Assembly: GCF_014697545.1 (NCBI RefSeq)
Contig: NZ_JACJSA010000003.1
Location: 372,001-436,000 of the forward strand
Length of the DNA: 64,000 nt
DNA from: Oscillatoria sp. FACHB-1407
GTDB taxonomy: Bacteria > Cyanobacteriota > Cyanobacteriia > Elainellales > Elainellaceae
Reading direction: 5' to 3'
Made by a program: the position numbers and the translations under genes. Of the stretch, positions 15,568 to 47,683 are shown in pieces. Numbering within the stretch: the first letter of the stretch is position 1; every line of letters starts with the position of its first letter. The notes under the pieces are model-generated. The model did no database searches. It had not been told where the DNA came from and saw nothing but the letters and a program-made list of their open reading frames with translations.

Positions 15568-16407
15568 TTATTGTTTAACGAAAGTCCATTCCACAATCTG
15601 TATGGGTGCTTCTTGAAGTGCTTTTGTCAGAGCCTCATTACTTTCAAATTTTAACTCTGATAGGCGACAAGCTTCTACATTTACCGTAAATTGTTCCTCC
15701 TCAAAAGGCCATGGTTCAACAGTTACTCGCTCATCTGCAAGTTGCCGTACGTCATAGCGTTGACCATCAATACCAGAAGTAATTTCTAATGCACGCTGAG
15801 CAGCAGGCAATTGATTTTGTGCCAGGATCAGTGAGAGGCGATCGCACCACCGCATAAATTGATAAGCTCGATCAGCATCGTCTTTTTTGATGCCTAACCC
15901 TTTGCGCCATTCCTCTTGATGTTTAATCTGTTCATCTAAAAACTGATCCCATTCCGGTGACTTGCCAGGCTTATCTTGATTTAGAAAACAAACATGCATA
16001 GAAACGAGCATCGCGACCCATCGCCCCCGATAGCGAGCACCTGCAACTAAATCAGATAACACTGGAATGCTGGAGTTGATATCAGGCGATCGCTTATCCA
16101 CCGTGAAATCAAGGGGTGCGCCTGCCTCAGTTAAATGATTGCCCTCCCATTCACGTTCCAGATCATCGTGATGAGAAATCGCTGCCAGGGTTTCATATAA
16201 ACGCAACGGAGCGTTAGAACGTTTCCACTGACCTGCCAATTGGGCGGCAAGCAACGCATGAGCACGATGATAAATAATCTGCCAACCGGAATCAGTCAAA
16301 TGGACAATCACAGCTAATGTTCCCCATATGTCAAAAGTCTCTGCTCGCAAGGTAATGGTTACTTTTGGCGATCGTCCTCGTTCTTCAGGCAGAAGATAAC
16401 CAGCCAT
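15568..16407 (-). CDS. DUF3891 family protein
   Basis: The frame has 279 residues. The conserved block GWQIIYHRAHALLAAQLAGQ followed by ETLAAISHHDDLE and MRWCDRLSLIL identifies DUF3891, a family with histidine/aspartate clusters suggestive of a metal site. Its function is unknown. The family normally begins about ten residues before GW, so initiation at the GTG at 16311 (VIVHLTDSGWQ) is a good alternative to the ATG at 16407. The 32 extra residues have no recognisable content and neither start has a strong ribosome site. It lies between a BON gene and the broken htpX. Confidence 0.8.
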   Translation of the reverse strand: MAGYLLPEERGRSPKVTITLRAETFDIWGTLAVIVHLTDSGWQIIYHRAHALLAAQLAGQWKRSNAPLRLYETLAAISHHDDLEREWEGNHLTEAGAPLDFTVDKRSPDINSSIPVLSDLVAGARYRGRWVAMLVSMHVCFLNQDKPGKSPEWDQFLDEQIKHQEEWRKGLGIKKDDADRAYQFMRWCDRLSLILAQNQLPAAQRALEITSGIDGQRYDVRQLADERVTVEPWPFEEEQFTVNVEACRLSELKFESNEALTKALQEAPIQIVEWTFVKQ

Positions 16408-16508
16408 ACCAGCGACAGAATAAAGATTCGCTCATTCGATAGAGTCGAGAGAACAAGAGAATTTGAGAGCCTGTGAGCGATGTCGTGATATAAAAACTGT
16501 GAAAACAT

Positions 16509-17037
16509 ATGTTGGGTAGCAATCAACTGAGAACAGCCGGACTATTAGGCTTATTGAGTGGAGTTTTAGTTTTAGCTGGTTATTATTGGCTGGGTAATGA
16601 GCAGGGACTTTATTTAGGTCTGGCATTCGCAGGATTAAGCAGCTTCGGCTCCTGGTATAGCGATCCTAAATCGTTTGTGAAAGTGCCCGCCCTTTGGGCG
16701 GGCACTTTCACAAACAGCTTTTTTCACAAATCAAATAGGATTGCTATATTACTCCGATAAAGCTGCACTAGCCGCTTATCAGACACAACCCCTGCAACGA
16801 GAACAAGCCCCGGAATTGTTTGATATGGTGGCACGCCTGAGCGATCGCGCTGGAATTCCAATGCCCAAGCTGTTTGTAGTACCCACCAAATCTCCCAACG
16901 CCTTCGCGACAGGACGTGACCTAAATCATGCCGCAGAAGGGTTACAGTCCCTCTTTCGGACTCATCCCTCCACTCAGGAGCGTATTCAACGATTGCTGCA
17001 ATTGGCAGGGCAACAACGCACTCCTGCAACGGTTTAA
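16509..17037 (+). pseudogene. htpX: htpX-like M48 protease gene, interrupted and internally deleted
   Basis: The first 49 codons (NQLRTAGLLGLLSGVLVLAG onward) match the N-terminal membrane hairpin of HtpX. After residue W49 the frame enters an 89-bp MITE (16658-16746) and stops at 16760. Beyond it the HtpX sequence resumes: YSDKAALAAYQTQPLQREQ, then IPMPKLFVVP and NAFATGRDLNHAA. Removing the MITE and one TA duplication rejoins the parts in frame as SWYYSDKAAL. A second lesion joins NHAA directly to the family's C-terminal LFRTHPSTQERIQRLL, deleting about 150 residues including the HEXXH zinc site. The gene cannot make an active protease. Confidence 0.88.
16658..16746. mobile_element. MITE-like element M1, 89-bp copy inside htpX
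   Basis: The ends are TAGCGATCCTAAATCGTTTG and, reverse-complemented, TAGCAATCCTATTTGATTTG, matching over about 24 bp with a few mismatches and both reaching GTGAA. TA flanks each side (16656-16657 and 16747-16748). The centre is a perfect palindrome of TTTGTGAAAGTGCCCGCCC. It has no coding capacity. It must have been moved by a transposase elsewhere, of IS630/Tc1-mariner type judging by the TA target. Confidence 0.8.
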
Positions 17038-17187
17038 TCGAAAGGGGGTCAACGCACCTGATGCCAATTCAATGGCTCAAAGCTACAGACTGACCCCTTT
17101 CAACCCTTTATCCCGTTTCTATAAATTTGGCTACACATTCATCTTCTGACCTGGCTTGTGCTGGGGTTGATCCTCCCTAACCCTACG

Positions 17188-17472
17188 TTAACTGGTAAGT
17201 CCTGTGAGGATAAAAATGGGTTGTGGAACGGGACTTGGAATGGGCTGTGGAATAGGACTCGGTACAGGTTGTGGAATGGGACTTGGCACAGGCTCAGGTG
17301 CCGGATCAGGAATGGGTTCTGGAACAGGACTGGGAATCGGCTCAGGGGCAGGACCCGGAATGGGTGCTGGTGCATCGGGGGGAGTCGGTTCTGGGTCAAA
17401 TCCAGATCGTCTGGAAAAATTGCCGGGAGAATGCATAGAAAAGGCTTGCATAGTCATGAGTTGAGATTGCAT
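17188..17472 (-). CDS. Proline-rich repeat small protein (uncertain)
   Basis: The 94-residue minus-strand frame is mostly a Pro-X repeat of the type PEPIPSPVPEPIPDPAPEPV, after a short N-terminus with methionines. The composition is close to the proline-rich linkers of the PEP-CTERM proteins at 61369 and 63556, but no PEP-CTERM anchor follows. It starts 34 bp after the BON gene on the same strand, so it could be co-transcribed. There is no clear signal peptide or ribosome site. It may be a decayed linker or plain tandem repeat. The plus strand reads as Gly repeats, a mirror artefact. Confidence 0.35.
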   Translation of the reverse strand: MQSQLMTMQAFSMHSPGNFSRRSGFDPEPTPPDAPAPIPGPAPEPIPSPVPEPIPDPAPEPVPSPIPQPVPSPIPQPIPSPVPQPIFILTGLTS

Positions 17473-17505
17473 TAGAACTACTGGGGCGATCGCGATGACT
17501 CTGAC

Positions 17506-46852: not shown

Positions 46853-47683
46853 ATGCCAATCGAACTGCCCCCCGGAACAGCGAGTTACAGCGATCGCGAT
46901 CGCCCACCCCAAAAACGCCAATACCTTGTGTTATTAGGCATTCTCGTTGCCATTATCGTCGCTGTCTTCTGGCTGTTTAATGCGCTGGTCAATGGCTTGG
47001 TTTGGATCATTCCTCCTGGTGTCGAGCGACAGTTGGGTGTGTTGACCGTGCCGAGTTTTGAGCGATTGGCGCAACCGTCTCCAGCGCAAGACACGCTGAA
47101 CCAATTACTCGATCGCCTGGAAACCCATCTGCCTGCTGAGCAGCGACAAAACCGCGACTATCAGGTGTTTTATGTTCCAGACTCGACGGTGAATGCACTG
47201 GCAATTCCGGGCGATCGCATCATCATCTACAAGGGTCTACTCGACAAGATGGAGTCTGAGAATGAGTTGATGATGGTGTTGGGGCATGAGTTGGGGCACT
47301 TCACCAACCGCGACCACCTGCGGGCATTGGGACGGGGGCTGGTGCTGCAACTGGCACTGGCAACCTTCTTTGGTGATATTGGCTCCCTCCAATCGATCGC
47401 CCTCTCCGGGGTGACGGCTCTCAGTGATGCCCGCTTTTCTCAAAACCAGGAATATCGCGCCGATAGCGTTGGTTTAGATTTGCTCCATGCCACCTATGGA
47501 CATGCTGCCGGAGCCACCGACTTCTTTGCAGAGTTGAGCCAACAGCCCGACCTCAATATCGAGTTTCTCTCAACTCACCCTGCCTCTCGTAATCGCGTCA
47601 AACGGTTAGAAGAAGCGATCGCCCAACGTGGCTATGGATTGGGAGAAAAACGTCCGCTGCCCGCTGCACTCGCTGGGGAGTAG
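46853..47683 (+). CDS. M48-family membrane metallopeptidase
   Basis: This 276-residue protein has a basic, proline-rich N-terminus and one membrane helix (about 24-52). The peptidase domain follows, with DSTVNALAIPGDRIIIYKGL, the zinc motif HELGH (145-149) in VLGHELGHFTNRDH and the third ligand E200 in NQEYRADSVG. C-terminal FLSTHPASRNRVKRLEE is typical of M48 (HtpX/Oma1-like). It should cut misfolded or regulatory membrane proteins. It follows AIM24 copy 3 after 12 bp. This intact M48 gene contrasts with the dead htpX at 16.5 kb. Confidence 0.93.
   Translation: MPIELPPGTASYSDRDRPPQKRQYLVLLGILVAIIVAVFWLFNALVNGLVWIIPPGVERQLGVLTVPSFERLAQPSPAQDTLNQLLDRLETHLPAEQRQNRDYQVFYVPDSTVNALAIPGDRIIIYKGLLDKMESENELMMVLGHELGHFTNRDHLRALGRGLVLQLALATFFGDIGSLQSIALSGVTALSDARFSQNQEYRADSVGLDLLHATYGHAAGATDFFAELSQQPDLNIEFLSTHPASRNRVKRLEEAIAQRGYGLGEKRPLPAALAGE

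Follow-up and report, generated by a model that had tools for sequence, protein, structure and literature searches.

The window, a stretch of 64,000 nucleotides from Oscillatoria sp. FACHB-1407 (contig NZ_JACJSA010000003.1, positions 372,001 to 436,000), holds the remains of an htpX gene at 16509-17037. Its start is normal, and an 89-bp element interrupts the frame after W49; the sequence WYYSDKAAL is restored once the 89 bp and one TA are skipped. Past the element, htpX resumes in a different frame as far as NHAA, where it runs directly into EGLQSLFRTHPST and a stop codon, the join lying at about 16935/16936. Two open frames result: one of 83 aa from the htpX start, which reads through the element to a stop just beyond it, and one of 98 aa with a TTG start (16741-17037), which represents the remainder of htpX. 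The earlier note had claimed that the HtpX frame is continuous only without the 89 bp and one TA, and its join is confirmed to the base. The features of the locus are as follows.

16509-16657, plus strand: 5′ fragment of htpX, codons 1-49 and two bases, start Met to SFGSW, from alignment with orthologues
16509-16760, plus strand: open 83-aa frame from the htpX start through the MITE to a stop, from ORF reading
16656-16657, no strand: TA, left target-site copy
16658-16746, plus strand: MITE, 89 bp, IS630/Tc1-mariner type, subfamily A, loop TTT
16673-16715, no strand: hairpin inside the MITE, perfect 20-bp stem, 3-nt loop at 16693-16695
16747-16748, no strand: TA, right target-site copy
16749-16935, plus strand: middle fragment of htpX, YSDKAAL to NHAA
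16935-16936, plus strand: junction of an in-frame 147-codon deletion, HEXXH and the following residues gone
16936-17037, plus strand: 3′ fragment of htpX, EGLQSLFRTHPST to the stop

Downstream, at 17188-17472, lies a minus-strand frame rich in proline repeats, with a weak Pfam match below the cut-off. A search of 16000-17500 for known RNAs with Rfam returned a single match up to E 0.1, which at 25.8 bits stays below the gathering score (47) and was rejected.

The element at 16658-16746 is a MITE of IS630 type. Its arms (16656-16682 and 16722-16748) are imperfect, being 81% complementary, and the inner hairpin (16673-16692 with 16696-16715) is 100% complementary; folded as single-stranded DNA, the element has a z score of -9.26, and none of 200 shuffled sequences was as stable. 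When the organism's own genome (8.13 Mb in 66 contigs) was searched with the element, 73 matches came back, many of which arise because the hairpin also aligns with itself on the opposite strand. At least 33 places cover at least 91 of the 93 positions, a lower bound obtained with 40 of 71 candidates scored. Seven of these copies, including that of the window, are 100% identical over 93 bases; of the others, one group is 97-98% and another 86-88% identical to the window copy, and we refer to the identity groups as subfamilies A and B. The copies lie in unrelated flanks, as the sequences around the 30 that were fetched all differ. A strict pattern fits 31 of the 33 copies, all of 89 bp, flanked by TA/TA in 30 cases and by TA/AA in one; the two outside it are L190, whose loop reads ATC, and L188, whose orientation is uncertain. 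The latter (G000:C17:25860-26110) consists of two adjoining MITE-like elements in opposite orientation, 77% and 86% like the window copy. Matches also occur across the family, in 9 of 36 genomes with the organism's own counted, and are numerous in two of them, G020 and G021. The name MITE, given earlier from the letters of the window, is thus borne out by the TA/TA flanks, the terminal repeats and the at least 33 near-full-length copies.

A candidate source of transposase was found among the three DDE_3 transposase places in the own genome, a search with this one domain that further IS630 copies may escape. One place, L120, carries an IS630-type element (933-2048) whose ends resemble those of the MITE: its arms (926-958 and 2023-2055) are 82% complementary to each other and similar to the MITE termini. 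Its transposase is divided between two frames, one with the helix-turn-helix and the other with the DDE portion, which score 66 and 97 bits against the NCBIfam IS630 model, each alone below the cut-off of 100. Their overlap falls on seven consecutive A, suggesting a programmed frameshift. From the similar ends, this element is the likely, putative mobiliser of the MITE. The other two DDE_3 places, L118 (with an internal stop) and L119, were set aside as parents since no MITE-like ends were found there, and five weaker, partial element matches (L112-L116) were rejected as full insertion sequences, no transposase being recognised by eye among their listed frames.

Within each subfamily, the copies of the MITE differ chiefly at the tip of the hairpin. 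The loop of subfamily A (13 copies) reads TTT in 8, AAA in 4 and AAT in 1, and that of subfamily B (18 copies) reads ATC in 7, GAT in 7, ATT in 3 and GTC in 1. Outside the loop, 3 of 1118 positions (A) and 6 of 1548 (B) are off the subfamily consensus, i.e. 0.3-0.4%; inside it, 14 of 39 and 23 of 54 are. In each subfamily the two commonest loops are the exact reverse complement of one another, and the asymmetric arms fix the orientation of each copy. Loop pairs of this kind were seen as TTT/AAA and ATC/GAT in the own genome (L001-L030 and L189) and as TCC/GGA in the two family genomes rich in copies (L198 of G021 and L221 of G020). Reverse-complement loops among near-identical copies are best explained if the segment between the two stem repeats has inverted. 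Point changes and indels also occur in the loops, which argues against a pure flip: 5 of the 31 loops (AAT, ATT and GTC) are without a partner in their own subfamily, and the loops of G020 and G021 also differ in length. When 20 of the 25 listed copies from G020 were compared with 16 of the 25 from G021, four insertions proved common to both genomes. Two of these are identical. A third is unflipped and differs by some single changes and, in the stem, by a gap of 4 bases. In the fourth, the loop is TCC in one of the genomes and GGA in its counterpart, alongside two changes in the stem and an indel of one base. We consider it probable that the tips of these hairpins flip in place, in the manner of plastid flip-flop, and do so frequently enough to show at an insertion common to two related genomes. 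Among the literature matches listed, which in one search were 8 of 148, no title on loop inversion in bacterial MITEs was found.

The second lesion was examined against orthologues gathered from the family genomes and a genome collection. After removal of L076, L077, L080 and L081 as duplicates, 36 distinct orthologues remained. Those with 260 aa or more, 34 in number, were aligned with the pieces in the window; L071 and L092 (206 aa each) were left out. The retained residues are up to 76.6% identical (111 of 145) to an orthologue, L078, and the downstream piece matches an HtpX model with an E value of 2.5e-27. At the place of the deletion, 33 of the 34 have 147 residues and one has 146, the HEXXH zinc site included; this whole stretch is absent from the window copy. 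A loss of 147 codons is 441 bp, and the deletion is therefore in frame. The loss of HEXXH described in the earlier note is hence confirmed, and its figure of about 150 codons becomes exactly 147. Likewise, its reading of htpX as a pseudogene with two separate lesions agrees with the relatives, 35 of the 36 distinct orthologues carrying the missing stretch of 146-147 residues, and the alignment with related HtpX that it had proposed as a check indicates that a short frame is not common to them, as 34 of the 36 frames are at least 260 aa long. Alanine codons stand at both borders of the deletion place in many orthologues, so that a few bases of microhomology could possibly have been present at the borders.

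Other irregular htpX frames turned up in the same collection. L092 carries the 147 residues, with its 5′ part shifted to a different frame, perhaps through a sequencing error. L058, counted among the long orthologues, has a frameshift of its own near the start, which may be real or a sequencing error, and L058/L077 is the only HtpX found in G019 (protein identical to that of Microcoleus sp. FACHB-1515). In a metagenome-assembled genome of Acaryochloris sp. CRU_2_0 (L071, 4863-5438), a 206-aa htpX frame lacks 100 codons, HEXXH among them, again in frame, and retains 47 of the 147 residues; this loss is independent of the one in the window. A genome with a protein identical to that of L071 (G225) also has a 305-aa HtpX-like frame, 73% like L071. 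The best other matches of L071 (in G230 and G241) sit in long frames, of 298 and 313 aa, and both mini forms of HtpX therefore look lineage-specific. Gene order gave no further landmark: among 38 loci from relatives (four repeat another locus, their protein being identical), none has a recognisable neighbour beside htpX, and one window protein matches weakly in three.

The search for a second htpX that the earlier note had proposed was successful. Among ten M48 places in the own genome is an HtpX paralogue on another contig (C4), 290 aa long from its ATG, with the motif HELSH present. Over residues 3-115 it shares 55% identity with the window copy, and it matches HtpX models with E values down to 5e-98, yet below their curated cut-offs. 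The intact M48 peptidase at 46853, which had been put forward as a possible compensating gene, is not supported in that role: it is LoiP/BepA-like, with its best scores from the LoiP (66 bits) and BepA (61 bits) models, both far under the cut-off, and a weak one from HtpX (29 bits). A tree of 57 sequences sets lineage 2, made up of the C4 copy and 20 further sequences, apart from 36 sequences that include the window copy (lineage 1), with a support of 100; the lineage labels preceded the tree and were given by whichever search had brought the sequence. Support near the window copy, inside the 36, is weak. Three sequences (L070, L154 and L155) were left out of the tree and L156 was not recovered.

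Of the 36 family genomes, 10 have both lineages, 8 have lineage 1 alone, 11 have lineage 2 alone (the window genome being counted here) and 7 have neither or are undecided. Some of the absences may be gaps, as 3 of the 10 other lineage-2-only genomes are less than 80% complete; the lineage-1 copy of G031 (L155) ends at a contig edge and was assigned by resemblance, and G017 (a fragment at a contig end) and G021 (a divergent relative only, 43%) were tallied as undecided. Neither lineage was found in G032 (100% complete), G033 (95%) and G034 (99%), where a second HtpX search gave one weak match in G034 (E 2e-7) and none in the other two. In view of these three genomes, HtpX may be dispensable and compensation unneeded. 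The window genome seems just to have joined a lineage-2-only state already shown by other members of the family, and the C4 copy is a plausible backup that is predicted, presumably, to cover the lost function. No title on HtpX paralogues in cyanobacteria appeared among the literature matches listed.

Together, these data support, with a probability of roughly 0.85, a reading in which a redundant second htpX was lost recently, by a MITE and a deletion, while the lineage-2 copy remains. In a family with two HtpX lineages, either of which is often missing, the lineage-1 copy would here have suffered two inactivating events. One would be the arrival at a TA, with a shift of the frame, of a non-autonomous 89-bp element, for which an IS630-family transposase is the most likely mover; the other would be a deletion of 441 bp that removed the zinc site and may have arisen between short repeats at alanine codons. 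The intact lineage-2 HtpX on the other contig presumably covers the function. Transposition in trans, recency and compensation are the parts that we infer.

The age of the loss is where this reading departs from the earlier note, which took the two lesions as a mark of prolonged loss of selection. Such a long-standing pseudogene would account for both lesions and for the four changes at sites invariant in the 34 orthologues: the window copy is altered at 4 of 48 such sites, each orthologue at 0-2, a mild sign against constraint, and at sites conserved in at least 90% it departs at 4 of 68, the others ranging from 0 to 7. The ratio of divergence at codon positions 1+2 to that at position 3, however, is much the same in the 34 pairs that involve the window copy (0.330) as in the 561 pairs of orthologues (0.325). 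Third positions are strongly diverged (0.62), so that this ratio detects long decay only, and it shows none. No third lesion, whether stop or frameshift, was found in the remaining 144 codons, and the MITE is identical to six others. Prolonged decay is therefore unlikely, and from the orthologue-like ratio and the lack of a third lesion we infer a recent loss, in a comparison that covers one genome of the genus.

A reading with the deletion first would fit some of the same observations. An in-frame deletion and apparently constrained codons are also what a zinc-less protein, useful until the MITE arrived, would leave behind: the 147-codon deletion would have come first, producing a catalytically dead, membrane-anchored mini-HtpX kept for another role that the MITE ended recently. 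The deletion does keep the frame, the retained codons lack long neutral drift, and the frame in Acaryochloris sp. CRU_2_0 has independently lost HEXXH in frame; yet one third of deletions keep the frame by chance, a search of open frames favours in-frame cases, mini forms are not common to the relatives seen (the matches of L071 in G230 and G241 being long), and the 4 of 48 altered invariant sites do not speak for a conserved role. We regard this reading as very unlikely. That the element or the deletion is an assembly artefact, foreign to the organism, is less credible still, and we would be surprised if it were so. The genome is a draft in 66 contigs with several identical copies of the element, which could invite such an error; however, the TA/TA flanks are those of 30 of 31 copies, the contig is 527 kb long, ordinary sequencing reads are longer than the 93-bp repeat, and a collapsed repeat should not produce a 441-bp loss at an unrelated place.

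As biology, the case is ordinary, in that a MITE and a deletion put an end to a redundant gene. In this family, one or the other HtpX lineage appears to have been lost repeatedly, and here one such step is caught with the agents of the loss still legible. The retained pieces resemble HtpX of peptidase family M48 (NCBIfam PRK03001.1 and related models) in aligning with long orthologues, and they differ from a working HtpX in the missing HEXXH and the broken frame. The element, for its part, has counterparts in Nezha, which is reportedly a MITE related to IS630/Tc1-mariner insertion sequences in cyanobacteria. Like such MITEs it is short and geneless, with terminal inverted repeats, a TA duplication, many copies and a related insertion sequence; unlike them, it is 89 bp long with a perfect internal hairpin, Nezha being compared here by description only. 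Cyanobacterial genes broken by MITEs are described for the mcy cluster of Anabaena (PMC10969869). The present family, which has dozens of nearly identical copies and a likely IS630 partner within one genome, is a natural set for counting hairpin loop inversion. The nearest parallel to that process lies in plastid hairpins, for which small 'flip-flop' inversions are described (PMC6342102): a short loop, flanked by inverted repeats of some 18-20 bp, occurs there in either orientation. The short loops of the MITE likewise occur in both orientations among related sequences; unlike the plastid loops, they belong to copies of a mobile element in cyanobacterial genomes.
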